DNA from: a virus
DNA: 33,239 nucleotides
Direction: 5' to 3' (one strand)
IMG/VR virus record: IMGVR_UViG_3300008106_000048
Location: 1 to 33,239 of that record
The notes below the pieces were generated by a model. That model worked only from the letters and a program-made list of their open reading frames with translations. It ran no database searches and was not told where the DNA came from. Every line of letters starts with the position of its first letter. The first letter of the stretch is position 1. This document shows, in pieces, positions 2,595 through 30,334 of the stretch. Made by a program: the position numbers and the translations under genes.

Positions 2595-4281
2595 ATGTCT
2601 AGAAAAAATGCTGTAGGGATTCCTTTGATTTCTGAATCCTTAAGGGAGCAATTATTTGGGGATTTAGAAAACCACCCAAGCAAAACTGCTCGTGACGAAG
2701 CCAAAAGACAGTTACAGAGCTTCAATCTGAGTGGCTCGAACATTCCTACTCCTCCTACTATTGAATTTGATTTACCCCCTCTTGAAGGACCCTATGGATG
2801 GGTCGGAACCCTATTCTGTCCCTTACCCTCTTGAGATGTCCATTGTTTATGACTGTGAGGTTGCTGTTACTAGCTCTAATTACCCTGTCATGGCTTGTGC
2901 TGTTTCTTCTGTCGCTTGGTATTTTTGGGTTTCCCCTAAACTGGTTTCAAACGGTTCTGATACTCTTTGTCCTTTGGGTAAATCCGACAAATTTGTTGTT
3001 GCTCATTATGCCAGTTATGACCGTGCAAGAACCTTAGAAACTTATGACCTCAAACTCTCAGGCGTTCGTTTTTGGGATACTTTGTCTATGCACCAATGCG
3101 TCGCTGGTCTAAGTTCAAAACAACGTCCTCTTAGCATCAAACATAATAAAGCTCTTGATGAGCAAGGTGAGTCTCCTTTTTATTTTGATTGGCTTGAGGT
3201 TTCTAGCGGTAATTCTTTAGCCGAAACTTCAAGATTGCATTTAGGTTATTCTATTTCCAAATCCGACCGTGATTATTTTGTTACCGGTACTCTTTTGGAA
3301 ATAAAAAATCGTTTTCAGCAATTAGCTCAATACTGTGCTAATGATGTTAAAGTCACTTTTCAACTTTATCAAGTTTTATGGTTCCGCTTTAAGGAAAAAT
3401 GCCCTTCTGCTGTGACTTTTTGCGGAATGTTGCAAATGGGTACTGCTATCCTTCCTGTTACCCGTGAAAGTTGGTATGGCTATATCAATCGGTGTGAAGA
3501 GTTGTTTCAGTCCGAACGCTTAAAAATTAATTCCCACTTGCAAATGTTGGCTGATGATGCAGTTTCTAAGTTTATTAGCGGTGAATTAGACCCTAACTCT
3601 GATGCTTGGCTTCGTCATTTAGATTGGTCTATGCCTTCTTCACGGGCTAAAAAACATAAAGACAAACCAGAATGGTATCGTAAGCTATTCAAGGGTGATA
3701 AACTGAACCTTACTGTTCGTTCCCAATGTACCCCCTATCTTTTACGTCTCTCTTGGATGGGTTTCCCTCTTTATCATCATAAGGATCGTAAGTGGGGTTT
3801 TCTTGCCACTCAGGGTGCTGATGTTTCTTCCAATACCACACCTTTGCTTCTTGAAAACTTTATCTCTCACGATGGTGGTCTTTCTTATGTCGATACTCTG
3901 TATTATCCCCTACCTCACAAAGCCGGTGAAAATTCCAATGTTGGTTCGCCTTTGTCTAAAGATTATCTGTCTGAAATGGAAGGAGGTATTCTTGATTCTG
4001 ACTTCCCTGAAGCTAAATTAGCCCTCCAATCTGCTATTTCTTGCGCTTATTGGGTTTCTGTTCAAGACCGAGTAAAAAATCAATTTGTTGTTCTGTCTTC
4101 TGACAATCGAACTGGTTTTATTTGTCCTCAATTAATTACTGCCGGTACTGTCACTGGTCGTGCTGTTGAAAACACTTGGCTTACTGCGGCTAACCCCCGG
4201 GCTAATCGCATTGGAAGTGAAATTAAAACCACTGTTCGTATGCCACAAGGCTATGTTCAAATTGGTGCTGACGTGGACAGT
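2595..4281 (+). CDS. DNA polymerase gamma-like family A polymerase, 5' exon (frameshifted at about 2803)
   Basis: The encoded protein follows mitochondrial DNA polymerase gamma through its whole length. The N-terminal part (2595 to about 2803) contains G-I-x-L-I-S-E-S-L-R-E-Q-L-F-G and LPPLEG, as in Pol gamma. The frame then shifts +1, apparently at GGG 2802-2804. The next frame carries the 3'-5' exonuclease motifs: VYDCEV (Exo I, Asp and Glu present), AHYASYDRA (Exo II) and YCANDV (Exo III). Then come the spacer, the WYRKL and LPHKAGENSNVGSP segments, ITAGTVTGRAVENTWLTA, and motif A ending GADVDS at 4281. A possible in-frame start for the second part alone is ATG 2794 or 2836, but that would lose the N-terminal domain. 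The spacer is shorter than in animal enzymes. The coding sequence is interrupted after AGT 4279-4281 by a group I intron and resumes at 5176. Confidence 0.85.
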
Positions 4282-5175
4282 TAACACAATGGCTGTCGTT
4301 AAACTCCTCTAATTGCTGGAAACTCCAGTTAAGCCTTTACACCACAATCCCTTTAGGATACAATTGGGATAGCGTTTAAAAAGATAAAGGTTATGGACAA
4401 TCAGCGGGAAAGCCTAGTTACAATCCCCGGATTTAGTAAGTACAGCGTTACTAAAACGGGTCGTATCTACTCCCACCGAGTCAAGCGTTTTATGTCACCA
4501 GCAGTCAATAAAAGTGGATATATGGCAACTGTCCTAACAAATGACTCAGGGGAAACTAAAAACATCATGGTTCACCGTATGGTAGCCCTAGCCCATCTAC
4601 CCAACCCAGACAATCTCCCCGTAGTCCACCACAAAGACGATTGCAAGACCAATAACAATCTTGAAAATCTTGAATGGTGTACAATTTCCCACAATATCTC
4701 TGAAGACTATCGGCTAAAGGGCGACAAACGCCCCCAAGGTAGAAAAAACCAACACTCGGACTTCAGAGATATTCACCGGGAAGAAGTAATGGAACTATGG
4801 GTACAGGGTTACACCACCCGAAAAATAGCGGAGATGGTGGGCATGAACAGAACCACAGTGGGAAGGATTGTACAGGACTCTTCAACGACTAGAGAAACGT
4901 CTAGATTCAAGTTAACCACAGAAGATATTGTAAAAATCTTCAATTCTGACTTACCAGATGAACAATTAGCTAAAGAGCATGGAGTACAGAAGTCCCATGT
5001 GGCTAACATCAAGAAGGGTAAAGCATATAAGGGTATCTTGAAAGAACTAGGCTTATTATCGTAGGGCTTAAGCAAGCTCGAAACGGGGAGATACGGGAAA
5101 CCGTATATGATATAGTCTCAACACTGGGGAGACTCAGTGAGAATAGTCGGAAGCGGGCTATTCGTAAGAAACTTG
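4282..5175 (+). other. Group I intron in polymerase motif A
   Basis: The 894-nt insertion splits the polymerase codons for D-V-D-S and Q-E-L-W. The exon ends ...GACAGT, and GCTGTC at 4292-4297 can pair with it to form helix P1 with a U.G pair at the splice site. The last intron base is G (5175), as group I chemistry requires. A P7-3'-like GATATAGTC lies at about 5110-5118 behind a small stem (ACGG-GAAA-CCGT), and ACGACTAGA near 4884 could be its partner. Removal joins the two polymerase exons in frame. A free-standing HNH gene is inside. The same arrangement, HNH-bearing introns in family A polymerase genes, is known from Bacillus phages such as SPO1. Confidence 0.85.
4393..5064 (+). CDS. HNH homing endonuclease with NUMOD4 and HTH modules
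   Basis: The 223-aa protein shows an N-terminal NUMOD4-like segment (IPGFSKYSVTKTGRIYS, about residues 12-28). An HNH_3-type core follows (VHRMVALAHLPNP, VVHHKDDCKTNN, LENLEWCTISHN, about residues 58-102), with the catalytic His pair and the Asn residues in place. Two helix-turn-helix modules come after (TTRKIAEMVGMNRTTVGRIV and DEQLAKEHGVQKSHVANIKKG) that would bind the target. Such enzymes cut intron-less alleles, here presumably the polymerase motif A codons, and so spread the intron. The gene lies wholly inside the intron, and both its ends come close to or overlap likely core elements. Its A-rich coding strand differs from the host polymerase gene, consistent with independent origin. It looks intact. 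Confidence 0.88.
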   Translation: MDNQRESLVTIPGFSKYSVTKTGRIYSHRVKRFMSPAVNKSGYMATVLTNDSGETKNIMVHRMVALAHLPNPDNLPVVHHKDDCKTNNNLENLEWCTISHNISEDYRLKGDKRPQGRKNQHSDFRDIHREEVMELWVQGYTTRKIAEMVGMNRTTVGRIVQDSSTTRETSRFKLTTEDIVKIFNSDLPDEQLAKEHGVQKSHVANIKKGKAYKGILKELGLLS

Positions 5176-6030
5176 CAAGAGTTATGGATTTCTGACCTTA
5201 TAGCTGATGCTCATGTTGGCATTATTGGTGGTACGCCTTCCTCTTTTCAAACACTTGTTGGCTGTAAAGAAGATGGCACTGACCCTCATTCTATGACTGC
5301 TTCTTTATTAGGTATCAGTCGTGATAATGCTAAAACTGTCGTCTATAGCCGTCGATATTCTGCTGGTCTTAAATCGATGATTAATTATATGCGGGAGTTC
5401 CGTAAAACTTTGACTTCTGCTGAGGCTAAACAGCTTGCTTCTGATATGTTTGCCAAAACAAAAGGTAAAAAAATTGAAGGACGTTGGCGTTTAGGTACTG
5501 AGTCCGTTATGTTTAACGAACTTGAACGTATTGCTACTTCTAGTGACCCTCGCACTCCTACCTTAAAACGTACTATGAGTGATGCCATTCATCCTCGTTT
5601 TACTGGTCACAAAGATTATCTAACTAGCAAAATTAATTTTTGTGTTCAAAGCTCCGGTGTTGATTTTTTACACATCTGTCTTACTGCTGTTGATTATCTT
5701 TGTTCCAAATACGACATTGATGCTCGACTTTGTATCACTATTCATGATGAATACCGGTACATTGTTCTTGCTAAAGATTCTGCTCGTTTTTGTTTAGCTT
5801 TGCAAATAGCTCACCTTTGGACTAGGGCTTATATCTCTTATTCTGTTGGACTTTATGATTTACCAGCTTCTGTTGCTTGGTTCTCAGGTGTCGATATTGA
5901 CTTCACTATTCGTAAGTCCCCCGACCAGCACGCTATCACTCCTTCTCAACCTTTAGGTCTTTCTTTAGGGCGAGTCACTACCATTCAAGAGATTCTTGAG
6001 GTGACTAAAGGTTCCCTTTTGAAATATTAG
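5176..6030 (+). CDS. DNA polymerase gamma-like polymerase, 3' exon
   Basis: This exon encodes 284 residues from QELW of motif A to the C-terminus. Motif B is ISRDNAK...YSRRYSAG (about 5311-5364), with the nucleotide-binding Arg and Lys present. Motif C is ITIHDEYRY (catalytic Asp codon 5746-5748). Between them are the Pol gamma landmarks GTESVMFNELERIATS, DPRTPTL, CVQSSGVDFLH and DLPASVAWFSGVDID, and it closes with EVTKGSL as in the mitochondrial enzyme. All polymerase active-site residues are present, so the domain should be functional once the intron is removed. The frame is open upstream to 5137, but those codons are intron sequence. Pol gamma-type enzymes have been reported from some cyanophages, from memory. 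Confidence 0.9.
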   Translation, partial: QELWISDLIADAHVGIIGGTPSSFQTLVGCKEDGTDPHSMTASLLGISRDNAKTVVYSRRYSAGLKSMINYMREFRKTLTSAEAKQLASDMFAKTKGKKIEGRWRLGTESVMFNELERIATSSDPRTPTLKRTMSDAIHPRFTGHKDYLTSKINFCVQSSGVDFLHICLTAVDYLCSKYDIDARLCITIHDEYRYIVLAKDSARFCLALQIAHLWTRAYISYSVGLYDLPASVAWFSGVDIDFTIRKSPDQHAITPSQPLGLSLGRVTTIQEILEVTKGSLLKY

Positions 6031-6377: not shown

Positions 6378-6796
6378 TCTTCAAAAACTTCAGTTAAAAT
6401 CCATGACAGCCAAACACTAAATATTGCTTGTATGCTACTCATTATAGTAAAATATGTGGAAAATACGCTTAACGTGGGAATAGGTAATACTCTTAACAGA
6501 TTGGTTAAACTTATTGCTATTCCGTAAACTCTCGCCACTCCTAACACTATACTGCTTCCCTCTAATGTAAACTTAATTGTTGGTTTTTTGGCTTCTCCTC
6601 TTATAAAATATTTCAAAATAGGTATGCTAAAATTTGTCACAGATGATAATAATAGCAACAATGTATATTGAAATTGCTCGTCTGTTAAACCCCCTATTAC
6701 TCTCACCAAAGTTGTAGTCCAAAATATAAAACCTATGGCTATAAAGTATTCTTTTCCTAATTTTTGCTTAATCTCTAGTGTCTGTTTTGGGTTCAC
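6374..6796 (-). CDS. Membrane protein, 140 aa, holin-like position
   Basis: The protein has about four hydrophobic segments (YFIAIGFIFWTTTLVRVIGG; YTLLLLLSSVTNFSIPILKYF; SSIVLGVARVYGIAISLTNL; a C-terminal segment ending SVWLSWILTEVF). They are separated by short charged loops, with a charged N-terminus. It overlaps the upstream gene by 29 bases, so the two are probably translated together. Size, topology and the presence of a cell-wall-enzyme-like gene two genes upstream fit a holin or another lysis membrane protein, but no holin family is recognised. This is a context-based guess. Confidence 0.6.
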   Translation of the reverse strand: MNPKQTLEIKQKLGKEYFIAIGFIFWTTTLVRVIGGLTDEQFQYTLLLLLSSVTNFSIPILKYFIRGEAKKPTIKFTLEGSSIVLGVARVYGIAISLTNLLRVLPIPTLSVFSTYFTIMSSIQAIFSVWLSWILTEVFED

Positions 6797-7400
6797 TTAT
6801 TGCTTTTCCTAAATCTGCTAAAAACCTTTCTAAATACTCCTTAACATTGTGGGCGGATTCACCTTCTAATTGGGTAAATTCTTTGCTTGGAGGGGGTAAA
6901 AAAGGGTTTCCTGAAGCTATTTTAACGGTTGCTATTAAATAAAGTTTATAATCATCTTTACTTCCCGCTACAAATAAAACCATTCTCACTTTTTCCCACC
7001 CTAAAAAATTTATTTGCCTTTTAGTATAACCTAAATCCACTAATATTTCGTAATTATTTGATTTTAAAATTGTTGACTCTGGATACTTTGTAGAAACGTA
7101 TGTTATAATATTTTCTAACAGTATTTCTTTGTTCTCTTTATTTAATCCTATTCCTTTCGGCATTTTTAAAGTTGTACTTTTGGTTATGTACCCATCTAAT
7201 AAATAAACTAAATTTTCTGTATCCTTTGTAACTGTAATGTTATCTTTTGTTTTTACGTATTTTTGAAGAATTACTTTTTCTTTTGTATCTATTTTCTCTT
7301 GTCCCCAAATTTGAAAATAAATCACTAAAATATTCACGCTTATATTTACCGCATAAATTAATAATCTTTTTGTTACTACCCGTTTTAAGAAGTTAAACAT
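6768..7400 (-). CDS. Membrane-anchored protein, 210 aa, unknown
   Basis: The frame is open to 7463, but the natural start is probably the ATG at 7400 (MFNFLKRVVTKR), which puts a basic N-terminus directly before one membrane helix (LLIYAVNISVNILVIYFQIW). The remaining 170 residues are predicted soluble and outside the membrane, rich in Lys and Asp, with a proline cluster (NPFLPPPSKEF) near the end. Topology resembles an inner-membrane spanin or a periplasmic anchored factor. It lies between the L,D-transpeptidase-like gene and the multi-span membrane gene and may form a lysis cluster with them. Its start is only 10 bp from the divergent ClpP-like gene, so its promoter must lie inside that gene. 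Confidence 0.6.
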   Translation of the reverse strand: MFNFLKRVVTKRLLIYAVNISVNILVIYFQIWGQEKIDTKEKVILQKYVKTKDNITVTKDTENLVYLLDGYITKSTTLKMPKGIGLNKENKEILLENIITYVSTKYPESTILKSNNYEILVDLGYTKRQINFLGWEKVRMVLFVAGSKDDYKLYLIATVKIASGNPFLPPPSKEFTQLEGESAHNVKEYLERFLADLGKAISEPKTDTRD

Positions 7401-7410
7401 TTTATAATCT

Positions 7411-7776
7411 ATGGAATTATTACCTGATTTTAAGCCATCTATTTCCGTTATTAACCACGACACAATTCCCTATTTTATCGCATTACAAAAATTAAATGTA
7501 AATAGGATTTTTGTAAATTCTAAAGGGGGAGACATTCTTTCAGCTATCCATATCGCTGAAATTTGTCACACCCCTTTAATTGTAATTAAGGCTATTAGTT
7601 CTTCAGCAGTTATGACCTTGCTTATTAAGCCTCAGTTTCGTTTTGTTTTACCCAGTGGTTTCCTTTTTTTGCACCCTCTAACCTGTAATAAATCTTCTTG
7701 GCTTAAAGGTCGGTGTTTTTCTGATAATGAATTACAAAACCTTTTTAGTTTCTCATTAGCTAAAATTGACTTTTAA
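7411..7776 (+). CDS. ClpP-like (S14 family) serine protease, short
   Basis: The 121-aa protein carries the core of the ClpP/SppA fold: FVNSKGGDILSAIHIAE (strand and GG-D turn, about residues 34-50), then IKAISSSAVMTLL, whose Ser aligns with the nucleophile segment, then FRFVLPSGFLFLHPL, with the catalytic His in the position of ClpP M-I-H-Q-P. It stops soon after, well short of the ~200 aa of ClpP, so the third catalytic residue and the oligomerisation region may be missing. Phages use relatives of this fold for head maturation. The gene is embedded between two minus-strand genes and overlaps the 3' end of the L,D-transpeptidase-like gene by 21 bases. Confidence 0.55.
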   Translation: MELLPDFKPSISVINHDTIPYFIALQKLNVNRIFVNSKGGDILSAIHIAEICHTPLIVIKAISSSAVMTLLIKPQFRFVLPSGFLFLHPLTCNKSSWLKGRCFSDNELQNLFSFSLAKIDF

Positions 7777-8273: not shown

Positions 8274-8978
8274 ATGGCTATCAAAGAATTGTTAAATCCC
8301 ATAGGTAATAATATTGTAACTTGGATGTTTCCCACTGACAATGAATGGGGCATCCCTGTCCTTCCTTTGAATATGGCGGGTAAATGGCCAGAAACTCCTA
8401 TTAATATTTGGGGGGCTAAGGCTCGCAACAAATCACTTACCGGTACTGTCTTTCACTATACCGACGATTATCGCTTTAATGGTCATTGGAAAAATCCTTC
8501 TAAATTAATCGATACTTCAATCACTCTTGTTGGTGAAGTTAACTACACCATTACTCTTCAAACTCCTAAAGCTATCGCTATTGAACTAATTTTTAAAAAA
8601 CGTTGGCTTTCTCGTTATTGGGCTGAAGCAGGTATTCGTATTCTTGTTGATGTAAATGTTCCTACTGAATTTCAGGATATTGCTCTTTTAGGCGTTCCTA
8701 AAGGTTGGGATGCTTACTGTACTCATGGCTATTCCGATGGTATTGCCGCTACCTATGAAGAATTTGATATGGCTTGTCGCCACGCTGGTACTTCTGACAT
8801 TTTTTTCACTGTTTATGGAGGAGGACGCAAAGTTAAAGAAGAATGTCAAAAAATGGGCTGGTGTCATGTTATAGAGGAGTCTGATAGAGCTAGGGGTCGT
8901 TTTAAGGATGATTTTAATGTCTCTACCTACCTGAAGACAGAAAATAAAGCTTCGCTTACACAATCTGTCGGTATTTGA
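8274..8978 (+). CDS. DUF4417-like phage/plasmid protein
   Basis: The 234-aa protein reads like the DUF4417 family found in phages and plasmids. An N-terminal WGIPVLPLN leads to FHYTDDYRFNGHWKNPSKLI, then a strand and KRWLSRYWAEAGIRILVDVNVP, then LLGVPKGWDAYCTHGYSD and FFTVYGGGRKVKEECQKMGWCHV. These correspond to the conserved F-x-x-D-D-Y-R-F-E, N-R-W-x-G-x-Y-W-Q, G-I-P-K-G and V-Y-G segments of that family. Its biochemical role is not established; links to replication have been suggested by context. ATG 8274 is preferred over the in-frame GTG at 8259. Codons end mostly in T, as in the polymerase. Confidence 0.7.
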   Translation: MAIKELLNPIGNNIVTWMFPTDNEWGIPVLPLNMAGKWPETPINIWGAKARNKSLTGTVFHYTDDYRFNGHWKNPSKLIDTSITLVGEVNYTITLQTPKAIAIELIFKKRWLSRYWAEAGIRILVDVNVPTEFQDIALLGVPKGWDAYCTHGYSDGIAATYEEFDMACRHAGTSDIFFTVYGGGRKVKEECQKMGWCHVIEESDRARGRFKDDFNVSTYLKTENKASLTQSVGI

Positions 8979-12760: not shown

Positions 12761-13594
12761 ATGTCTAGTATTGCTTCCCCCAATTTATCAATTCTACCTA
12801 AATTGGTTCTTATCTTTGGTGATTCTGGTTCTGGTAAATCCGTTGCTCAAAACGCTTTTCAGGAACATTCTTTTGTTCCTCTCCATCCTATTCAAGACCT
12901 AAAAACCTTCTTAGAGTCTATGTGCGATTTACCGTCCGGTTCTTTGCATACCCCTGAAGGTAAGGCTTCTGTTCCAAATTTTTACCGTTTTCTTAATAAC
13001 AAAATGGGTATTCTTTTTGACAGATGTTTTGAATTTCTACACCGTCATTACTCTAATACCTCTTTGGCTTCCTATCATTATTGTTCCAAGTTTTATTCTG
13101 ACACTTATGGTGCTTATAATGTTTCTCTTTATGACATGACTCACCGTTTTATCACCCATATTCTTTTGCCCGATAGTGTTGACCATCTTTCTTTAAAAGA
13201 TTTGGAAATCTGCTCTTGGTCTGTTATGCGTGATAAAATTGACCCAGAGTTTTCTGCCCCTTTTCTTCGTCATTCTTTAGATTTTTTGCTTCTCCAACGT
13301 CGTCATGATGTTGTTATTGGTGCTATCCGTAATCCTCATGAATTATCCATTCTCCAATCTTATATCCTTTCTCAATCCTGTATTCCTTATTGTATTTCTA
13401 TTCAACGTCCCGGTATTACTTCTCTTAATACTGACGTTGACCAACCTAAACTTTTAAGCTGGTGTTTAACCAATCTCCCTTCTGAACAATGCTTTAATCT
13501 TTCTAATTCCCGTTCCCTTGAACATTGGAGTTCCTTTAATCGTCAGTTAGCTTTTGACATCAAATATCGACTTGGTTCTACCTGTTCTCTTTGA
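12761..13594 (+). CDS. P-loop kinase, possibly deoxynucleoside monophosphate kinase
   Basis: The 277-aa protein (ATG 12761 chosen because the promoter TATACT at 12722 excludes upstream starts) has a Walker A motif LIFGDSGSGKSVAQNAF near residues 18-34. It also has VVIGAIRNPHELSIL near residue 187 and a CISIQRPGI segment after it. This order resembles phage dNMP kinases, where a conserved V-x-D-V-R-x-x-N-E segment and an I-x-R-x segment follow the P-loop. That role fits beside the RNR large subunit: phosphorylation of dNMPs to feed the polymerase. The central part is not conserved enough for me to be sure, and a general adenylate-kinase-like NTPase is possible. A terminator follows the stop. 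Confidence 0.55.
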   Translation: MSSIASPNLSILPKLVLIFGDSGSGKSVAQNAFQEHSFVPLHPIQDLKTFLESMCDLPSGSLHTPEGKASVPNFYRFLNNKMGILFDRCFEFLHRHYSNTSLASYHYCSKFYSDTYGAYNVSLYDMTHRFITHILLPDSVDHLSLKDLEICSWSVMRDKIDPEFSAPFLRHSLDFLLLQRRHDVVIGAIRNPHELSILQSYILSQSCIPYCISIQRPGITSLNTDVDQPKLLSWCLTNLPSEQCFNLSNSRSLEHWSSFNRQLAFDIKYRLGSTCSL

Positions 13595-13624
13595 TTTCCA
13601 CTTTAGCCGTTTAACCCTTCTTTT

Positions 13625-13649
13625 AGTCCCAAAAGAGGGGCTTTTTTTG
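13625..13649 (+). terminator. Rho-independent terminator after the kinase
   Basis: AGTCCC and GGGGCT pair around AAAAGA, followed by seven Ts. Confidence 0.75.
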
Positions 13650-13670
13650 TTGTTTTTCGCTGTACTCAAA

Positions 13671-13860
13671 AAACTGTACTACCCCTCTAAAAATCAATAA
13701 AACTCAATCTTATTAAGGGTTTTAACATTTTTGACTTTAAAAAACACCATTTAAAAATCAATAAAATTCAGTCATAGCATAGCTTAGACCTGTTTGTACT
13801 ATGTAGTAGGGGGGATAACTTTATTTTTTTTATCTACTACACTTTTAATCATCGCAGTTT
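13671..13860 (+). repeat. IR1 left arm (190 bp)
   Basis: This segment is repeated in inverted orientation at 14364-14553 with few differences. Landmarks are two AATCAATAAAA elements, AAGGGTTTTA-type and AACACCATTT segments, then TAGCTTAGACCTGTTTGTAC, TATGTAGTAGGGGGG and ATAACTTTATTTTTTTTAT. The same core, more diverged, occurs in the IR2 arms at 29083 and 30062. There is no gene here. Confidence 0.9.
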
Positions 13861-13930
13861 AAAAACTCTCATACTTTTTTGCCTCTCTCCCTTACCCCAC
13901 CCCCCAAAAAAAATATTTTTCCACTACCCC

Positions 13931-13960
13931 TTGACATTTTGTTTATACCCATGCTATGCT
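13931..13960 (+). promoter_or_regulatory. Promoter inside IR1
   Basis: TTGACA (13931-13936), an 18-bp spacer and TATGCT (13955-13960), overlapping a CTATG...CATAG palindrome (about 13954-13970). No ORF follows, so it may make an untranslated RNA. Confidence 0.6.
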
Positions 13961-13999
13961 ATATACATAGCGAAAAAAAAAAAAATAGAATGGGGGATA

Positions 14000-14031
14000 G
14001 GATACTAGATTACTTTAATTCTAGGGTATTC
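14000..14031 (+). ncRNA. Stem-loop downstream of the IR1 promoter
   Basis: GGATACTAGA and TCTAGGGTATTC pair around an AT-rich loop about 40 bp after the -10 box. A stem-loop beginning with the related GGATACGAGA occurs in the same place in IR2. Confidence 0.45.
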
Positions 14032-14363
14032 AAAAATCAACCTACCAAAAATTAAATACATATTTTAAATATTTAGCCCACATTTGCTCATTTACCCATT
14101 TTTAACCCCTTAGACCATTACAAATTCGTTTAATAGTAAAAGTATCACGACCCGCTCTGAAGTGTGGTAAAAGGCTGTTTATTATTGTCTGTAGTGTATG
14201 TCCACCTTAAAGTGGAACAATGCTAAAAGAAAAAAGCCACTATACGGAAAAGTCTAAAACCCGCCCTGTTAAAGCAAAAAAAAAAAAAAACAGACTCACC
14301 TTATTAGGACTTCCGAATGCTTTAATTTGCTCATTCTATATAGTTTATGTTTTTTTTGTACCT

Positions 14364-14553
14364 AAACTGCGATGATTAAAGGCGTAGTAGATAAAAAAAA
14401 AATAAAGTTATCCCCCCTACTACATAGTACAAACAGGTCTAAGCTATACTATGACTGGGCTTTATTGATTTTAAAATGGTGTTTTTTAAAGTAAAAACGC
14501 TAAAACCCTTGATATGATTGAGTTTTATTGATTTTGGTTAAGTAGTACAGTTT
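14364..14553 (-). repeat. IR1 right arm (190 bp)
   Basis: Reverse complement of 13671-13860 with scattered substitutions and one-base indels in homopolymers. The inner ends (AAACTGCGATGATTAAA) and the outer ends (GTAGTACAGTTT) are both sharply defined. Confidence 0.9.
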
Positions 14554-14679
14554 TACGCCTAAATTGATTTTTCATTTTCAAAAAAAAAATTTAGGACAAA
14601 AAGGAGGCACTTTCTTTTTTAGCCTAAAAGAGGGGTAGGGGTATCACCTGCATAAATTTTACTTTTTGTCAAGTCCTAT

Positions 14680-14761
14680 TGTGACACTTTTTAAACTGGC
14701 ACATTGGGACTTGACATTTTTACCTTTTTATGGTAGGTGTGCCAATTTATAAACTGGCACA
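14680..14761. repeat. Palindrome ladder a, two 24-bp sites
   Basis: Sites at 14680-14703 (TGTGACA form) and 14738-14761 (TGTGCCA form) are 58 bp apart, with a TTGACA between them. The consensus is TGTGnCA-N10-TGnCACA. Confidence 0.85.
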
Positions 14762-14776
14762 TTTCCTATTGACATT

Positions 14777-15052
14777 TTACGCTTTTCTTGCTAGAGATTC
14801 TCGGTAAAGCTCTTCACTCAATATCCAAAAATGAGCATTAGGTAAACCGAAAGCATTCTCCAATTTGCAAGCAATACTATCAGTAATCTCGGTTTCACTT
14901 GCCAGCAGTCGAAAGGCTTCCTTTCTTGACATCTCCATCCGATTAGCGAATATTCGTAAGGGTATTCCTCTGTCTCTCATGATGTAGTCAATGATTTCTC
15001 CAGGGGGCGAAAACCAATCTGATGTGTATTCGTTCTCAATTGTGTTAGTCAT
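14777..15052 (-). CDS. HigA-like XRE-family HTH protein
   Basis: The 91-aa protein has the HigA antitoxin layout. A PPGEIIDYIMRDRGIPL segment (about residues 16-32) leads into a helix-turn-helix (IFANRMEMSRKEAFRLLAS), then the antitoxin-type SIACKLENAFGLPNAHFW. Such proteins repress their own promoter and usually neutralise a HigB RNase. No HigB-like gene is adjacent, so this may be a solitary regulator, and it is a candidate binder of the palindromes. It has its own promoter at 15089-15117 and a GGAGTTCC ribosome site. A paralogue lies at 16394-16714. The last codons and the downstream DNA are shared with the KTSC gene's end, a sign of recombination. Confidence 0.75.
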   Translation of the reverse strand: MTNTIENEYTSDWFSPPGEIIDYIMRDRGIPLRIFANRMEMSRKEAFRLLASETEITDSIACKLENAFGLPNAHFWILSEELYRESLARKA

Positions 15053-15088
15053 AGATTGTGGAACTCCTTTGTTTTTCTTTATATTACT

Positions 15089-15117
15089 ATTATGTCATCT
15101 TTTTTTAGATTTGTCTA
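15089..15117 (-). promoter_or_regulatory. Cassette promoter for 14777-15052
   Basis: TAGACA, 17 bp, CATAAT on the minus strand. A palindrome site lies 7 bp upstream of the -35 box. Confidence 0.8.
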
Positions 15118-15124
15118 TGCCATA

Positions 15125-15344
15125 TGTGACACTTTCTAAACTGGCGCTGTGACACTTTATGAACTGGCACATTTCCTATTGACATTTTTACTTTTTTGTG
15201 GTAGATGTGACACTTTATGAACTGGCACATTTCCTATTGACATTTTTACTTTTTTGTGGTAGATGTGACACTTTATAAACTGGCACATTACCTATTGACA
15301 TTTTTACTTTTTGTGGTAGATGTGCCAATTACTAAACTGGCACA
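15125..15344. repeat. Palindrome ladder b, five sites
   Basis: Sites start at 15125 (partial right end), 15148, 15206, 15264 and 15321. The last four are 57-58 bp apart, and each is followed by T-rich DNA with TTGACA 7 bp away. Together with the promoter at 15089 this fills the 327-bp gap between genes. Confidence 0.9.
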
Positions 15345-15379
15345 TTTCCTATTGACTCTTTAGTAGTTTGCCGTCTTCA

Positions 15380-16135
15380 CTAAAAACGGTATTCACGATA
15401 TAAGTTTTCAAATTGTGCTGAGTTTTGTGTGATTGTATATCTCAAGAAATCTCGACGCAGAAAGACAATCAATCCTAGATTAGATTGCTTAATTTCTGTT
15501 AATTTATTCGGTAAATGATCGATCAAAGCTTTCAAGGCTTTTCGTTGAAGGTTATCGTTATCATTGGCGACATTAGGAAAAGCATCTTCTAATCCATCAA
15601 TTAAAAATATAATCTTCGAGTTTTTTTGTTTAAGGTATTCATGCAGTTTATTTAGTTGATAATTTTCCTGATTATACCCTAAAACTCTCGAAAATTCTTT
15701 GACCCAAAATTTTGCCCAATCTACCTCGTTCCAATCTTGATTAGATAGAGACTGCGTTATTCTGTCTTTAAAATCCGATATGGAAAATTGACAATTATGA
15801 TTGAGTGTATTATTTACATTTAGCCGTGCTTGTTCAAGAATATTTTTGGACTTATCATTTAAATTTTGTGATTGGAGTAAAGGAAATATTAAACCCAGAT
15901 TTTCTCCGGAATTTTCTTGATTTTTAGGATCAACTTTATTTAAAAAATTTCCCCAAGACTGTAGGCGAGATAGCTGAATATAATTAAAGGTTTTTCCCGC
16001 ATCTTTAGCACCAATTGAGATAACTACCGGTAGTTTATCTTGAAAATTACTAGCCATGTTTTTTAATAGCTGTTCATAACCGACAGCTAATAAGTCAGAG
16101 GATTTAACTTCAATCAGGAAGGTGTCGTAACTCAT
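15380..16135 (-). CDS. Chimeric gene: KTSC-like N-terminus fused to a P-loop ATPase fragment
   Basis: The first 24 residues (MSYDTFLIEVKSSDLLAVGY) copy the start of the KTSC protein at 17243-17491. The rest is unrelated to KTSC. It has a Walker A (ISIGAKDAGKTFNYIQL, about residue 40), a long helical insert, and a Walker B (KIIFLIDGLEDAF, about residue 174), followed by LGLIVFLRRDFLRY, as in STAND/KAP-like ATPases. The 251-aa protein stops shortly afterwards, so it probably represents only the front of a larger cellular ATPase. It uses the standard cassette promoter and GGAACTCC-type leader. The chimera suggests capture of a host gene fragment behind an existing promoter and start codon. Function is unclear. 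Confidence 0.6.
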   Translation of the reverse strand: MSYDTFLIEVKSSDLLAVGYEQLLKNMASNFQDKLPVVISIGAKDAGKTFNYIQLSRLQSWGNFLNKVDPKNQENSGENLGLIFPLLQSQNLNDKSKNILEQARLNVNNTLNHNCQFSISDFKDRITQSLSNQDWNEVDWAKFWVKEFSRVLGYNQENYQLNKLHEYLKQKNSKIIFLIDGLEDAFPNVANDNDNLQRKALKALIDHLPNKLTEIKQSNLGLIVFLRRDFLRYTITQNSAQFENLYREYRF

Positions 16136-16166
16136 GCGGAACTCCTTTGTTTTTCTTTATATTACT

Positions 16167-16195
16167 ATTATGTCATCTTCTTTTAGAATTGTCTA
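16167..16195 (-). promoter_or_regulatory. Cassette promoter for 15380-16135
   Basis: TAGACA, 17 bp, CATAAT on the minus strand, with a palindrome 7 bp upstream. Confidence 0.8.
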
Positions 16196-16202
16196 TACCG
16201 TA

Positions 16203-16347
16203 TGTGACACTTTCTAAACTGGCATAATTTGACTTGACATTTTGACCTTTTTGTGGTAGATGTGACTCTTTTTAAACTGGTTCATTACTTCCTGCATAAA
16301 CTTTGCTTTTTGTTAAGTCCTATTGTGCCAATTAATAAACTGGCACA
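16203..16347. repeat. Palindrome ladder c, three sites
   Basis: Sites at 16203-16226, 16261-16284 (weaker right half, GGTTCA) and 16324-16347 (TGTGCCA form). The first two are 58 bp apart. Confidence 0.85.
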
Positions 16348-16393
16348 TCTGGACTTGACATTTACGCTTTTTTTGTTACTTTTAGCACTTGTA

Positions 16394-16714
16394 CTACTGT
16401 ACAGTCGTATCTGTTTCGGATAGTACGATTGAACTATTGTTCCCTAGATTCTGCATTACATTGTTTTGATTTGCTAGAGATTCTCGGTAAAGTCTTTCAC
16501 GCTCTTTCCAAAAATGAGCAGTAGGTAAGCCGAAAGCATACTGCAATTTGCAAGCAATACGACCTGTAATCTCAGTTTCACTTGCCAGCAGTCGAAAGGC
16601 TTCCTTTCTTGACATTTCCATCCGATTAGCAAATATTCGTAAGGGTATTCCTCTCTCTTTCAAGATGTCGGAAATGGTTTCTCCAGGGGGTGTGTTCTCA
16701 ATTGTGTTAGTCAT
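16394..16714 (-). CDS. HigA-like HTH protein with a foreign C-terminal tail
   Basis: This is a paralogue of 14777-15052. The segment GIPLRIFANRMEMSRKEAFR and the following LLASETEIT are identical, with small changes elsewhere. The N-terminus is shorter (a deletion before PPGE). The last ~24 residues (NVMQNLGNNSSIVLSETDTT) are encoded by DNA homologous to the 3' end of the KTSC gene at 17243 but read in another frame. The gene is therefore a recombinant between a HigA-like cassette and a KTSC cassette. The DNA-binding part is intact. It has its own promoter at 16751-16779. No toxin partner is seen. Confidence 0.75.
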   Translation of the reverse strand: MTNTIENTPPGETISDILKERGIPLRIFANRMEMSRKEAFRLLASETEITGRIACKLQYAFGLPTAHFWKERERLYRESLANQNNVMQNLGNNSSIVLSETDTTVQ

Positions 16715-16750
16715 AGATTGTGGAACTCCTTTGTTTTTCTTTATATTACT

Positions 16751-16779
16751 ATTATGTCATCTTTTTTTAGATTTGTCTA
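16751..16779 (-). promoter_or_regulatory. Cassette promoter for 16394-16714
   Basis: TAGACA, 17 bp, CATAAT on the minus strand, practically identical to the promoter at 15089. Confidence 0.8.
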
Positions 16780-16958
16780 TGCCATATGTGACACTTTCTA
16801 AACTGGCTCATGTATAAGTATTCTTTGCGTACCGTTGCAGGACTTTGATTTTCAACTTCACATTCTACTTTTTTCTGGTTAGGTATCGTAGCCATAAATA
16901 AAAGTCCGATAATTAATACTGAAAATAATACTGAAATTATTAGGTCGATAGTTTTCAT
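16767..16958 (-). CDS. Small membrane protein, 63 aa, C-terminus running into the repeat
   Basis: MKTIDLIISVLFSVLIIGLL gives one clear N-terminal membrane helix, followed by a short polar tail. The final ~14 residues (MSQFRKCHIWHRQI) are translated from the palindrome and promoter repeat of the next cassette, so the original 3' end has probably been lost by recombination at the repeat. The gene overlaps the -35 region of the downstream cassette promoter. Its ribosome site (GGAGTTCC) and promoter at 16990 are standard for this block. Confidence 0.6.
   Translation of the reverse strand: MKTIDLIISVLFSVLIIGLLFMATIPNQKKVECEVENQSPATVRKEYLYMSQFRKCHIWHRQI
16787..16810. repeat. Palindrome site, single
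   Basis: TGTGACA half, N10, TGGCTCA half. It lies upstream of the promoter at 16751 and inside the 3' end of the membrane-protein gene. Confidence 0.75.
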
Positions 16959-16989
16959 ATGGAACTCCTGTGTTTTTCTCTATATAACT

Positions 16990-17018
16990 ATAATGTCATC
17001 TTTTTTTAGATTTGTCTA
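16990..17018 (-). promoter_or_regulatory. Cassette promoter for 16767-16958
   Basis: TAGACA, 17 bp, CATTAT on the minus strand, with a palindrome 7 bp upstream. Confidence 0.75.
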
Positions 17019-17025
17019 TACCGTA

Positions 17026-17228
17026 TGTGACACTTTCTAAACTGGCATAATTGGACTTGACATTTTGACTTTTTTGTGGTAGCTATGACACTTTATGAAC
17101 TGGTACATTTTCACCTGCATTGACTTTACTCTCTGTCAAGTCCTATTGTGACACTTTCTAAACTGGCATAATTGGACTTGACATTTTTACTTTTTTGTGG
17201 TAGCTGTGCCAATTAATAAACTGGCACA
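17026..17228. repeat. Palindrome ladder d, four sites
   Basis: Sites start at 17026, 17084 (degenerate, TATGACA/TGGTACA), 17147 and 17205. Spacings are 58, 63 and 58 bp. Confidence 0.85.
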
Positions 17229-17242
17229 TTACCTATTGACAT

Positions 17243-17491
17243 TTACGCTTTTCTTGCTACTTTTAACTCTTGTACTAGAGTACAATCGTATTTGTTACGA
17301 ATAGTACGATTGAACTCTCGTCCTATAGATTCTGCATTACAGAGATTTTGATACACCTGAATTGGTACTCCTGTATATTTGTACTCACTTCCAGATTTAA
17401 ATACTATTCTTAATGTTTCGCTAATTGGCTCATAACCTACAAACATTAAGACAGAGGATTCAACTTCAAACAGGGGGATGTCGTAAATCAT
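17243..17491 (-). CDS. KTSC-domain protein
   Basis: The 82-aa protein is almost entirely a KTSC domain: V-E-S-S near residue 9, then VGYEPISETLRIVFKSG, EYKYTGVPIQVYQNL, and NAESIGREFNRTIRNKYDC. The conserved G-Y, F-x-S-G, Y-x-Y-x-x-V-P and A-x-S-x-G-x-x-F elements are all present. The domain is found alone or next to nucleic-acid enzymes in bacteria and phages; its activity is not firmly known. This copy is the intact parent of the fragments at 15380-16135 (5' part) and 16394-16714 (3' part). The promoter is at 17523 and the ribosome site is GGAGTTCC. Confidence 0.85.
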   Translation of the reverse strand: MIYDIPLFEVESSVLMFVGYEPISETLRIVFKSGSEYKYTGVPIQVYQNLCNAESIGREFNRTIRNKYDCTLVQELKVARKA

Positions 17492-17522
17492 TTGGAACTC
17501 CTGTGTTTTTCTTTATATTACT

Positions 17523-17551
17523 ATTATGTCATCTTTTTTTAGAAATGTCTA
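17523..17551 (-). promoter_or_regulatory. Cassette promoter for 17243-17491
   Basis: TAGACA, 17 bp, CATAAT on the minus strand, with a palindrome 7 bp upstream. Confidence 0.8.
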
Positions 17552-17558
17552 TACCCTA

Positions 17559-17875
17559 TGTGACACTTTCTAAACTGGCACATTACCTATTGACATTTTT
17601 ACTTTTTGTGGTAGATGTGCCAATTACTAAACTGGCACATTACCTATTGACATTTTGACCTTTTTATGATAGCTGTGACACTTTCTAAACTGGCACATTT
17701 CCTATTGACAGTTTGACTTTTTTGTTGTAGCTGTGACACTTTATGAACTGGCACATTTCCACCTGCATTGACTTTACTCTTTGTTAAGTCCTATTGTGCC
17801 AATTTATAAACTGGCACATTACCTATTGACATTTTTACCTTTTGTGATAGATGTGCCAATTAATAAACTGGCACA
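17559..17875. repeat. Palindrome ladder e, six sites
   Basis: Sites start at 17559, 17616, 17674, 17732, 17795 and 17852, at spacings of 57-58 bp with one of 63. They alternate TGTGACA and TGTGCCA left halves and nearly all end TGGCACA. T-rich DNA with TTGACA lies between most of them. There is no gene in this 398-bp stretch. Confidence 0.9.
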
Positions 17876-17889
17876 TTACCTATAGACAT

Positions 17890-18033
17890 TTAGCTAAACA
17901 ATAGTTTTTTTAACCATTTAGCTTTTTTTTTCCAATTATTTGTGGGCATAAAATTATAGATCACTACTATTTCTTTACCCCGTTTAGCCACAATATGTTT
18001 AGCAGATAATTTGATTCTGAGTGGGTTAATCAT
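17890..18033 (-). CDS. Small basic protein, 47 aa
   Basis: ATG at 18033 follows the block's standard leader (GGAGTTTC) and a promoter at 18065-18093. This supports the gene despite its size. The product is basic, with a strand-prone first half (RIKLSAKHIVAKRGKEIVVI) and a Lys/Trp-rich end (NNWKKKAKWLKKLLF). It could bind nucleic acid or membrane, but the family is unknown. It is wedged between ladders e and f. Confidence 0.6.
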   Translation of the reverse strand: MINPLRIKLSAKHIVAKRGKEIVVIYNFMPTNNWKKKAKWLKKLLFS

Positions 18034-18064
18034 TTGAAACTCCTGTGTTTTTCTTTATATTACT

Positions 18065-18093
18065 ATTATGCCATCTTTTTTTAGAAACGTCTA
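18065..18093 (-). promoter_or_regulatory. Cassette promoter for 17890-18033
   Basis: TAGACG, 17 bp, CATAAT on the minus strand, with a palindrome 7 bp upstream. Confidence 0.75.
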
Positions 18094-18100
18094 TACCCTT

Positions 18101-18240
18101 TGTGACACTTTCTAAACTGGCATAATTTGACTTGACATTTTTACTTTTTTGTGGTAGATGTGACAATTAATAAACTGGCACAATCGGTATTGACATTTTT
18201 ACTTTTTTGTGGTAGATGTGCCAATTTATAAACTGGCACA
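18101..18240. repeat. Palindrome ladder f, three sites
   Basis: Sites start at 18101, 18159 and 18217, exactly 58 bp apart. Confidence 0.9.
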
Positions 18241-18259
18241 TCTGGACTTGACATTTAGC

Positions 18260-18604
18260 TTAGATAAGTCTTAGTATCTCTTGATACTTAGCATAGTTTT
18301 TATCGTCCTCCCAATTTACACTTAAATAGTGTCCATCACTTAACTCAATCTGACAATCATAATCCGTTACTGAACTAAAATCAACACTCCAAAAGCCATG
18401 AGGTTCATAAATACCTATAGCCCTCAACCATTGATTTATCACCTCTCTCGCTTCTTTTTCGGATTCTCCTAATCCTAATCCTAAGTTTTCTAATTCCCCT
18501 ACGTCATACTTGCCTAACTCTATCTCCATTGTACGAGTCTTACCATTCCAATCTTGCCCTAATATTCTGAACCAAGTTAGTTCACCGTTTACCGTGTTAG
18601 TCAT
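18260..18604 (-). CDS. Paralogue family A, member 1 (114 aa)
   Basis: This is an unknown acidic protein. It shares with 26278-26670 the segments TWFRILGQDW, GELENLGLGLGESEKEAREV and VTDYDCQIELSDG, plus a D-W-E-D-D-x-N-Y-A-K-Y end. The more distant copy is 26875-27204. The pattern (strands, then a Glu-rich helix, then strands ending in a charged turn) suggests a compact alpha/beta domain. The start MTNT repeats that of the HigA-like genes, pointing to an exchanged 5' end. AGGAGTTCC precedes the ATG. There is no standard CATAAT promoter directly upstream, unlike most neighbours. Role unknown; small acidic early phage proteins often act on host enzymes, but that is only an analogy. Confidence 0.75.
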   Translation of the reverse strand: MTNTVNGELTWFRILGQDWNGKTRTMEIELGKYDVGELENLGLGLGESEKEAREVINQWLRAIGIYEPHGFWSVDFSSVTDYDCQIELSDGHYLSVNWEDDKNYAKYQEILRLI

Positions 18605-22279: not shown

Positions 22280-22711
22280 TCAAGGTGTTTTTCTTACCTC
22301 GAACATCTCATTTATTGCATCAAATATTTGAGGTAATACTATCTGATTGATTCTGTCAACCTCTGCTTTATTTTTGATTACCTCTGCTAACGGGTTTACC
22401 GTTACATGAGAACCACCTCTACCTAATATTTCCGCTACTTCCTTTAATCCATAAGCTGTTTTCGCTAGTTCGTAAAACTTCCATAGGTTATCCCCTCTCA
22501 ATTTTACGTTTAAAGTGTAGTCTCTTTCTAGAGCCTCTTGCCAGTTGATATTCCCATAGTTGCTCAAGTGGTAATGTTCCCCTTTTGCCCTTAAATACCC
22601 GAAAGACCAGTACCAATCACAATCCCATGTCGGGGCGGCTATATATATTAGTTTTCCGTCTTTTTTTCGTTTTCCCAGATAGTGTATTTCTGTCCATTTT
22701 GTGCTATACAT
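22280..22711 (-). CDS. Phage-type hypothetical protein with WDCDWYWSFGY motif, 143 aa
   Basis: The N-terminal half contains KDGKLIYIAAPTWDCDWYWS and FGYLRAKGEHYHL, a pattern I associate with uncharacterised phage proteins (W-D-C-x-W-Y-W-x-F-G-Y). The C-terminal half is helical (WKFYELAKTAYGLKEVAEIL, then EVIKNKAEVDRINQIVLPQI). The Cys/His/Trp-rich front could bind a metal or ligand, but no activity is known. It has its own promoter at 22744-22772. Confidence 0.6.
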   Translation of the reverse strand: MYSTKWTEIHYLGKRKKDGKLIYIAAPTWDCDWYWSFGYLRAKGEHYHLSNYGNINWQEALERDYTLNVKLRGDNLWKFYELAKTAYGLKEVAEILGRGGSHVTVNPLAEVIKNKAEVDRINQIVLPQIFDAINEMFEVRKTP

Positions 22712-23933: not shown

Positions 23934-23979
23934 ATTACTGATAACTGATAACTGATAACTGATAACTGATAACTGATTA
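23934..23979. repeat. ACTGATA heptamer tandem repeat
   Basis: Six consecutive ACTGATA-like units (reverse TATCAGT) lie between two genes, with shorter runs near 23696-23711, 24331-24348, 24587-24602 and 24746-24768. Heptamer arrays of this kind are common in cyanobacterial intergenic DNA. Confidence 0.8.
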
Positions 23980-23980
23980 A

Positions 23981-24304
23981 TTAAAAGTCCTTAATAATTA
24001 CACCACCCTCAAATTGAATTACGGTCGTCCGATCCTCCAAATATTTAAGTGCCTCCGCTTCTATCTCATCCTCATCCTCATCATCGGGGGGAATAAAATC
24101 ATAATGTTCCGCCGCCTCTAGGACGCTATCATATTCTGAAAAATCACACCGCAAAGCGACTCTATCAAATTTGATAGGCTTATCACTATCCTCTAAGTTT
24201 TCTAGGTACTCAATTAAAGCTGTAGCACCCTCCCATGACCAACCAGCACTATGATCATATTTCAGTAATTTAATAGCTTCATCGGTGCTTAATTTTTGGT
24301 ACAT
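23981..24304 (-). CDS. Acidic hypothetical protein, 107 aa
   Basis: Starts MYQKLSTDEAIKLLKYD, with a helical first half including SWEGATALIEYLENLEDSDK. The middle reads RVALRCDFSEYDSVLEAAEHYDF, then an acidic D-D-E-D-E-D-E-I-E linker, and finally RTTVIQFEGGVIIKDF. The last segment (a strand, GG, a strand) looks like the end of a small alpha/beta fold. Proteins with an F-x-E-Y-x-S-x-x-E-A-A centre occur in phages without known function. TAGGAGT ribosome site. Part of the 25722-23719 operon. Confidence 0.65.
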   Translation of the reverse strand: MYQKLSTDEAIKLLKYDHSAGWSWEGATALIEYLENLEDSDKPIKFDRVALRCDFSEYDSVLEAAEHYDFIPPDDEDEDEIEAEALKYLEDRTTVIQFEGGVIIKDF

Positions 24305-29082: not shown

Positions 29083-29353
29083 AGTGACACCTTAAGTGTA
29101 CTACTTTGTGAAAATCAATAAAACTCAATCATATCAAGGGTTTTGTAATTTTGAGACAGTTTAAATACTGTTTAAAAATCAATAAAACCTAATCACAGTA
29201 TAGGTTTAGTCTGTTTTGTACTATGTAGTGGGGGGGATAACTTTATTTTTTTTATGATAGGGGTATCTAATCAACACAGTGAAAAACCCCTAAAAAAAGC
29301 TTTTCGTACCTTTTGAGAGCATTTGGAAGCTACAAGTACCTTTGAGTACCTTT
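29083..29353 (+). repeat. IR2 left arm (about 271 bp)
   Basis: Nearly exact inverted copy of 30062-30334. Landmarks are GTGACACCT, two AATCAATAAAA elements, ATCAAGGGTTTT, AGACAGTTTAAATACTGTTT, GTTTTGTACTATGTAGTGGG, ATAACTTTATTTTTTTTAT, GATAGGGGTATCTAATCAAC and repeated GTACCTTT units. The central ~180 bp matches the IR1 arms. Confidence 0.9.
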
Positions 29354-29795
29354 CGTTTATAGCTTTAACAATTTGTCTTGTTTTAAAAAGCTTTGCAAGT
29401 TTTTGATGTTCGGGCTTTAAAGGACTGGGTGATAGGTATAATTACTTAGGTACAAATACTTAAACCACTGGCCTATCCTTTCTTGTGAGTAGTTCACTCG
29501 TTTTTAATCCTTTCACTCTCGGTCTTTCTCCAATTGCTACTTTTTAACACCTTAAAGACATTTTTACCCGTTTAGGCTATATTCACTCTCTTAATAAGAC
29601 TGTAAGGTTTACAGGGCTATTTTCTACCCCTTCCTCACACTCCAACCCCCTTAGACAATACCACGTTTACCCTATTAGGCCATGTTAAGCATATTAAAAC
29701 ATAAGGAAAAAAATGTTAAAAGTGTTGAAATCCTCTCTGAGAAAGGCTTTAGGGTGGGAAATCTTTTGGAAAAAGAAAAATCTTTAAAAAACCTC

Positions 29796-29824
29796 TTGAC
29801 ATTTCGCTCAAAACCGTATATGAT
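29796..29824 (+). promoter_or_regulatory. Promoter inside IR2
   Basis: TTGACA (29796-29801), a 17-bp spacer and TATGAT (29819-29824), close to consensus. It probably makes an untranslated RNA. Confidence 0.8.
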
Positions 29825-29837
29825 ATAAGCATGGATA

Positions 29838-29865
29838 CGAGACTAGGAATTACCCTAGGGTCTTG
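29838..29865 (+). ncRNA. Stem-loop at the start of the IR2 transcript
   Basis: CTAGG and CCTAG pair around AATTAC, with AGA/TCT outside and a two-base bulge. It is preceded by GGATACGAGA, like GGATACTAGA in IR1, so the two transcripts seem related. Confidence 0.5.
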
Positions 29866-30061
29866 AAACATTTAACCTAACAAAAAAAAAAAGATATAAT
29901 ATATATAGATATGCCAGATTTTTGTGTAAAAATTGGCTGAAACCTATGCAGTGTAAGGGTTTCACGGTTTAGTATAAGGAGTGGTCAAAGAACAAAACCT
30001 TGAAAACACATTAAAAAAGATGACCTACGCCAAAACACAACTAATTGGGAAACTAAATCTT

Positions 30062-30334
30062 CAAAGGTACTTAAAGGTACTCGTAGCTTCCAAATACTCT
30101 CAAAAGGTACTTGTTTCTCATTTTAGAGGAAAAACCACTGTGTTGATTAGATACCCCTATCATAAAAAAAAATAAAGTTATCCCCCCCACTACATAGTAC
30201 AAAACAGACTAAACCTATACTGTGATTAGGTTTTATTGATTTTTAAACAGTATTTAAACTGTCCCAAAAATTTAAAACCCTTGATATGACTGAATCTTAT
30301 TGATTTTTACTGAGTAGTACAGGTTAGGTGTCAC
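30062..30334 (-). repeat. IR2 right arm (about 273 bp)
   Basis: Reverse complement of 29083-29353 with few differences. It includes AAAGGTACTTAAAGGTACT at its inner end and GTAGTACAGG...AGGTGTCAC at its outer end. Confidence 0.9.

Follow-up and report, generated by a model that had tools for sequence, protein, structure and literature searches.

In bacteriophage T4, the origins oriF and oriG consist of a promoter followed within about 120 bp by an A+T-rich unwinding stretch, with several origins per genome; as set out in part of PMC3016281, T4 origins lie near switches in transcription strand and in base composition, the latter location being typical of them and not common to all. Baculovirus hrs, several paralogous non-coding inverted-repeat loci per genome, are regarded as both origins and enhancers in the share of that literature available to us. 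The hrs are made of short palindromes in tandem. Iteron-type origins of phages and plasmids place direct-repeat boxes beside an AT-rich stretch, the yeast 2-micron plasmid undergoes inversion between inverted copies that flank its origin, and the phage-plasmid N15 carries centromere sites dispersed over its genome.

Here we describe IR1 (13671-14553), an inverted-repeat locus in a window of 33,239 nucleotides (the whole stretch of viral DNA analysed), together with its paralogues, which are named A to D in Microcystis phage Mic1, whose host genus is a bloom-forming cyanobacterium. With T4 origins the family has in common a promoter followed by an A+T-rich stretch, several copies per genome, a position near transcription-strand switches and, for locus B, a base-composition switch. 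T4 oriF and oriG have little sequence in common, whereas the Microcystis-phage copies are all paralogues, and to our knowledge T4 has no long inverted-repeat arms, unlike the Mic1-type loci. Baculoviruses are unrelated viruses, and the 190-bp arms of the Mic1-type loci differ from hrs in enclosing a promoter core. The boxes, repeated at a fixed 64-bp step with an AT-rich stretch nearby, resemble iterons, but the arms are mirrored around the promoter and the boxes are candidate initiator sites only. Loci A and D recall the 2-micron arrangement, although no Flp-like recombinase is linked to Mic1-type loci.

Anatomy and neighbourhood of IR1

Judged by its sequence, the window is a fragment of a Mic1-like genome, with 48% of bases 1-25000 covered by Mic1 at 91.6% (megablast). 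For bases 13600-14600, blastn returned a single match in the phage collection, again Mic1 (81% over 93% of the query), and zero matches in the plasmid collection. The left arm of IR1 (13671-13864, plus strand) gives a minus-strand BLAST match within the window at an E-value of 7e-69, far above chance, and the right arm, located by BLAST and the arm profile, occupies 14363-14553 on the minus strand. The inverted arms recognized in a first-pass annotation of this DNA are real and about 190 bp long, as it stated, but at 90% identity (BLAST) they are less alike than its "nearly identical" suggests. Each arm contains two AATCAATAAAA boxes spaced 64 bp apart, accompanied in the left arm by an inner TTGTACTATGTAGTAGGGGGGATAACTTTATTTTTTTT block. 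The arm elements that had been called conserved, AATCAATAAAAC and GTACTATGTAGTAGGGGGG, are both present, but in each arm only the outer copy matches the full AATCAATAAAAC exactly; the inner ones end in AT or GC. The interior is free of genes, as had been claimed, with no ORF of at least 60 aa within 13671-14553. The spacer has the reported size (503 bp had been given; we find about 500 bp), and its GC content of 32.9% is only slightly below that of its surroundings (about 32-36%). It is not featureless: it contains a conserved core, the most informative part of the locus.

The ORFs closest to IR1 are one that ends at 13594 on the plus strand and one at 14777-15052 on the minus strand. A terminator-like hairpin (13615-13642, plus strand) follows the last gene of the DNA-metabolism operon, a kinase gene, and precedes the left arm, and the operon beyond IR1 runs toward the locus. 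Because the kinase operon has its terminator before IR1 and the other operon converges on it, the promoter in IR1 serves neither. Similar hairpin-like sequences, seen by eye and unscored, flank Mic1 locus C on either side and also occur past the right arm of IR1. We infer that the core promoter of C, which points from the kinase gene to where the early block ends, most probably drives an untranslated RNA. A reading of the arms themselves as intrinsic terminators was rejected, the terminator-like hairpins being located outside them.

Other parts of the window deserve brief description. The gene for a gamma-type DNA polymerase (2731-6030) is split into exonuclease and polymerase parts, with an HNH/NUMOD4 homing-endonuclease-like ORF (4393-5064) between them. 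A long series of tandem 58-bp units, which include a TTGACA and a palindrome of the TGTGCCA-N10-TGGCACA kind, covers 14622-18314 and continues to about 23.7 kb; it probably serves the early block as an operator-promoter array, and related repeats are listed as promoters in the Mic1 genome paper, as far as its text was available (PMC7156551). A tandem 7-bp repeat, GATAACT (23936-23989), is like the ATCAGTT repeat of Mic1, which the same partial source traces to the host (PMC7156551).

A family of inward-facing loci

IR1-type arms occur again within the window at 29094-29255 and 30165-30325, with 79-80% identity (BLAST). This second pair, IR2 (29084-30334), has its left arm at 29084-29281 (plus strand) and its right arm at 30136-30334 (minus strand), around a longer spacer than that of IR1. 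In Mic1 (MN013189.1), an arm profile search found 13 arms in four loci, A (19.6-23.0 kb), B (53.9-55.5 kb), C (about 72.2-73.5 kb) and D (88.9-89.6 kb). By their neighbour genes, IR1 is locus C and IR2 is locus B. Locus C has the same place and the same neighbours in Mic1 as in the window, and is unannotated in Mic1. The 96.8-kb IMG/VR contig G001 also has four loci, one of them spanning the contig ends. In total, 58 full-length arms (45 distinct) were found across 16 records, some of them near-identical in DNA. The search for the arms in relatives that the annotation had proposed was thus positive, in Mic1 and in other fetched Mic1-like records.

The arms in these records fall into 26 clusters, and plus-strand arms precede minus-strand arms in 22 of the 22 clusters that contain both, so that the arms face inward; a G005 cluster at 23.3-27.4 kb consists of two inward-facing loci side by side. 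Arms occur singly or doubled, and are doubled at Mic1 C. The best-kept parts of the 45 distinct arms, in a consensus that excluded arms covering fewer than about 170 model positions, are the outer TGTACTAC, the two AATCAATAAAA boxes 64 bp apart and an inner TTGTACTATGTAGT-G-run-ATAACTTTATTTTTTTT block. Two further loci, E and F, are extra copies present in some genomes only. A 9,963-base contig (L042) has an arm at 3-162 beside gp4, a position without such a locus in Mic1 or G001.

A foldback or other terminal-inverted-repeat transposon without a gene of its own could account for long inverted repeats at the termini that share the outer edge TGTACTAC, and for the additional copies E and F. However, neither the 18 locus edges examined nor the empty site of locus E shows a target-site duplication, syntenic copies are retained across genotypes, and the core is conserved without coding sequence; we consider a transposon very improbable.

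Distant relatives (G006-G012) gave no significant arm or core match, the best arm match having an E-value of 0.02 over 17 bases by BLAST and 0.14 by profile. Six of them have a capsid protein 82% identical to that of Mic1 and a GC content of about 0.41, and the lack of the module in relatives with so similar a capsid counts against a family of origins; G012 is a near relative (97%), but merely an 18.9-kb fragment. Two exact-pattern scans of genome contigs for copies in hosts or prophages gave 0 hits, for those exact words only.

As for the published record, the Mic1 genome paper describes, in the text available, early-region repeats and a parS-like palindrome, and the word "inverted" is absent from its main text (PMC7156551). 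The words "promoter", "intergenic" and "origin of replication" are likewise absent from the main text of the Mic1 transcriptome paper (PMC11237433); the accessible text of PMC12510456 holds nothing bearing on these loci, and nothing on them was found in the literature, as available in part, on inverted-repeat phage origins, double rolling circles and cyanophage origins.

A conserved promoter and hairpin in the locus centre

The core of IR1 consists of a promoter (13931-13960, plus strand; TTGACA-18-TATGCT with an extended -10 TG), a hairpin just 3' of it (14000-14031, plus strand; GGATAC-TAGATT..AATTCTA-GG-GTATTC, with a 2-nt GG bulge) and an AT-rich tract (14047-14076, plus strand) that reads as a candidate unwinding element. 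IR2 has its promoter at 29796-29824 (plus strand; TTGACA-17-TATGAT, 11/12) and its hairpin at 29838-29865 (plus strand; CGAGAC-TAGG..CCTA-GG-GTCTTG). A sigma70-type promoter, hairpin and AT-rich tract are present in all 17 aligned centres (L009 was omitted as a duplicate), none of which contains a gene. The promoter consensus is TTGACAT-N17/18-TATGCT or TATGAT, with a single -35 base change in L018 and another in L028. The order of promoter and A+T-rich unwinding element seen in T4-type origins is thus found in the core. Spacers of the A, C and D types all match each other, and those of Mic1 A and D are 97% identical and lie in opposite genomic orientation; B-type spacers have a shorter part in common. 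The tree of locus centres has little support, with 2 of 13 inner branches starred, and none of our conclusions draws on it.

The hairpin was examined in an alignment of 16 of 18 distinct core segments, L026 and L032 being omitted as near-duplicates and L027 having no segment. Its 12 pairs are standard in 94.3% of cells. Cells changed on both sides number 13, against a shuffle mean of 5.4, and the covariation score is 0.260, against 0.132 in shuffled alignments; 0 of 500 shuffles were as high in either measure. Pairs with two-sided change number 3, however, a value that shuffled alignments also reach (434 of 500), and two of these three differ essentially between B-type sequences and all others. 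The two pairs closest to the loop are unpaired in 5 and 6 of the 16 sequences. G-U pairs occur, as expected for RNA or single strands and not for a duplex palindrome. The folding energy of the leader is unremarkable (z from 0.03 to -1.65; 0.03 for the IR1 copy). A known RNA family was rejected, since Rfam gave 0 matches at gathering score in the window and a lone weak match, to a snoRNA model (E-value 0.048, 23.5 bits against a gathering score of 44). As regards the annotation's alternative of an RNA locus, the promoter, the covarying hairpin and the flanking terminators suggest an RNA.

The only two GC-free 30-mers of Mic1 lie in cores A (22389-22418) and D (89212-89241). Its 30-mers with at most 2 G/C form eight clusters, C among them, and locus B is absent from the most AT-rich 30-mers.

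A promoter and conserved hairpin in every core, at loci placed at operon boundaries, would also suit regulatory islands, in which the core promoter drives a small structured RNA or sets transcription timing, the arms act as operator arrays and the skew switch at B is a separate coincidence. The early genes of Mic1, gp49-gp73, correspond to the B-to-C block, according to the accessible part of PMC11237433. On the other hand, both neighbour operons at C converge and end before the locus, so that no gene needs C, and the flanking genes belong to different temporal classes. Promoters in the arms that point outward were sought and none was convincing, the candidates lying outside the arms: gp48 (in Mic1 and the window, 11/12) and gp18 (in G003, 10/12) have their own promoter there, and most other flanking genes have none outside the arm or a weak one. 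We regard a purely regulatory role as possible, if doubtful.

A role as dispersed parS-like centromeres of a phage-plasmid state, as in N15, would agree with the dispersal of the inverted repeats over the genome. The Mic1 annotation includes ParA and ParB, and its authors, in the text available, propose a lysogenic state (PMC7156551). Yet Pfam assigns no family, and so no ParB domain, to the window protein at 6768-7463, the positional counterpart of Mic1 gp82, and detects no ParA domain in Mic1 gp5; the parS of the Mic1 authors is a different palindrome (8828-8850), and a promoter and hairpin are unexpected in a centromere. Such a role appears very improbable. The homologue of Mic1 gp5, annotated as ParA, lies at 15380-16135 in the early block of the window and also has no ParA domain by Pfam; in Mic1, gp5 is beside gp4.

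Replication signal at locus B

The full skew test covered Mic1 and G001, which have common ancestry and hence are not independent. In Mic1 the cumulative GC skew is lowest at 52,596 and highest at 9,490, and a two-arc fit with block bootstrap places the switch at 52.6 kb (90% interval 50.6-54.4 kb), with a log-likelihood gain of 157, whereas the best of 300 block shuffles gained 89. The switch in G001 is at 1.0 kb (interval -2.0 to 2.4 kb), at its locus B, with a gain of 141 against at most 67 in 300 block shuffles. The minimum in the window, at 30280, is inside the right arm of IR2. In Mic1, third-codon skew on the top strand is negative at 45-52.5 kb and positive in the blocks 56.9-71.9, 73.6-88.2 and 89.7-92.5 kb, in each case in genes of both strands. 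This single sign per replichore in genes of both strands, wherever both are present, indicates an effect of replication, not transcription. A point against the origin reading is that locus B also lies at the boundary between early and late transcription. A TnpB-like gene, gp49 (L007 6211-7455; Mic1 52610-53854), lies between gp48 and the first arm of B; a 39% identical homologue is found elsewhere in G001 (62.1 kb), near locus X.

Neither IR1/C nor A or D has a skew switch in Mic1 or G001. The candidate replication origin proposed for IR1 therefore has its skew signal at the sister locus, IR2/B, and not at IR1 itself. GGTACT/AGTACC words occur 8 times in B and 54 times in all of Mic1, with 0 each in A, C and D, and the centre of B is about twice as long as those of A, C and D; origin activity may thus be B's alone. 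The skew minima of two fragments, G004 (6477) and G005 (27064), adjoin or lie inside locus X; they probably reflect local gene bias, as G001 lacks a lasting switch at X. The minimum of G011 (33,441) falls on a dispersed promoter repeat, so that repeats of other kinds may likewise be found at a skew minimum. G007 and G011 have no module and carry dispersed TTGACA-17-TATACT promoters with a GGGTTAACCC palindrome, for example at L071 13332-13559 (G011 33332-33559).

No initiator gene was recognized among 10 proteins scanned in PHROGs or 30 entries (28 distinct) in Pfam. Mic1 has a Dda-like helicase (phrog_325, E-value 1e-66), which is compatible with a transcription-primed origin.

Inversion between loci A and D

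Mic1 and G001 are collinear over Mic1 1-22.8 and 89.4-92.6 kb, and the stretch of about 66 kb between (22.8-89.4 kb) is reversed (matches of at least 700 bases), with both breakpoints inside loci A and D. The junctions in Mic1 are antirepressor-A-gp18 and gp93-D-gp94. The gp18-locus-gp94 junction is found in G001, G002, G003, G005, L008, L025 and L026 (three distinct genotypes), and antirepressor-locus-gp93 in G001, G004 and G005. In all 19 locus instances for which a marker neighbour could be seen (C 3, B 4, X/D 4, Y/A 8; some contigs are near-identical), the core keeps one polarity relative to its neighbours, and a local switch that inverts between a locus's own arms was rejected, as single loci do not flip. 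The recombination or inversion site of the annotation thus finds support in a large inversion at two family loci, not in a flip between the arms of IR1. At the level of the family, arms in relatives and signals of replication and inversion are all present, the reverse of the outcome that the annotation had said would speak against it.

Recombination between opposite copies, yielding genome isomers or a changed replication mode, could even be the primary role of the loci. The Mic1 A and D cores are 97% identical to each other, above the 85-87% to the G001 copies X and Y, and B stays near the middle of the inverted segment, at distances of about 31 and 35 kb from its ends. However, no recombinase is linked to the loci, passive recombination is open to any dispersed repeat, and the second arrangement is seen in Mic1 alone. 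According to the text available, the Mic1 assembly consisted of 12 contigs of Illumina reads, whose order was established by PCR (PMC7156551), so that a PCR or assembly artefact at the repeats, whose longest exact A-D match is 162 bp, is possible. We judge recombination as the primary role unlikely.

Proposed mechanism

Based on the above data, we propose that the family represents the origin modules of Mic1-type Microcystis phages, with B as the main origin, a proposal that we hold tentatively and to which we assign somewhat less than an even chance. Readings as a transposon, terminator, local inversion switch or ParB-dependent centromere are disfavoured. The promoter and the AT-rich stretch fit a transcription-primed origin, as do the location of the loci at strand switches and the skew switch seen at B. 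Host RNA polymerase would initiate at the core promoter, and the transcript would fold its leader hairpin and then invade the AT-rich tract behind it as an R-loop. The 3' end of this transcript could prime the phage polymerase for leading-strand synthesis, and binding of a phage protein to the inward-facing arms may open or hold the region. Bidirectional replication would start mainly from the IR2 (locus B) copy. Its paralogue IR1 (locus C), set apart between two convergent operon ends, would either be dormant or serve as an origin of an auxiliary or conditional kind; that IR1 itself has origin activity is doubtful. IR1 is not classed as an origin of the T4 type, as the composition switch sought there was not found; a persistent R-loop and autonomous replication are predictions. 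Lastly, because the copies are similar and some are mutually inverted, they may also recombine and can invert the segment around the origin.

A more elaborate version would make the inverted paralogous origins the recombination sites themselves, with theta replication from B, flips of the A-D type, isomers, double rolling-circle concatemers and a primer RNA at each copy. We think this distinctly unlikely; if true, it would amount to 2-micron-like amplification in a tailed phage.

For freshwater cyanophages whose DNA polymerase is of the mitochondrial (gamma) type, we know of no account of where or how replication starts. In the present case the sequence by itself singles out one locus as the probable origin, and its compact conserved core and paralogues can be tested singly. 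If the copies isomerise the genome, short-read maps of Mic1-type phages would be unreliable at these loci, and copies of an origin would become connected with genome inversion in tailed phages.
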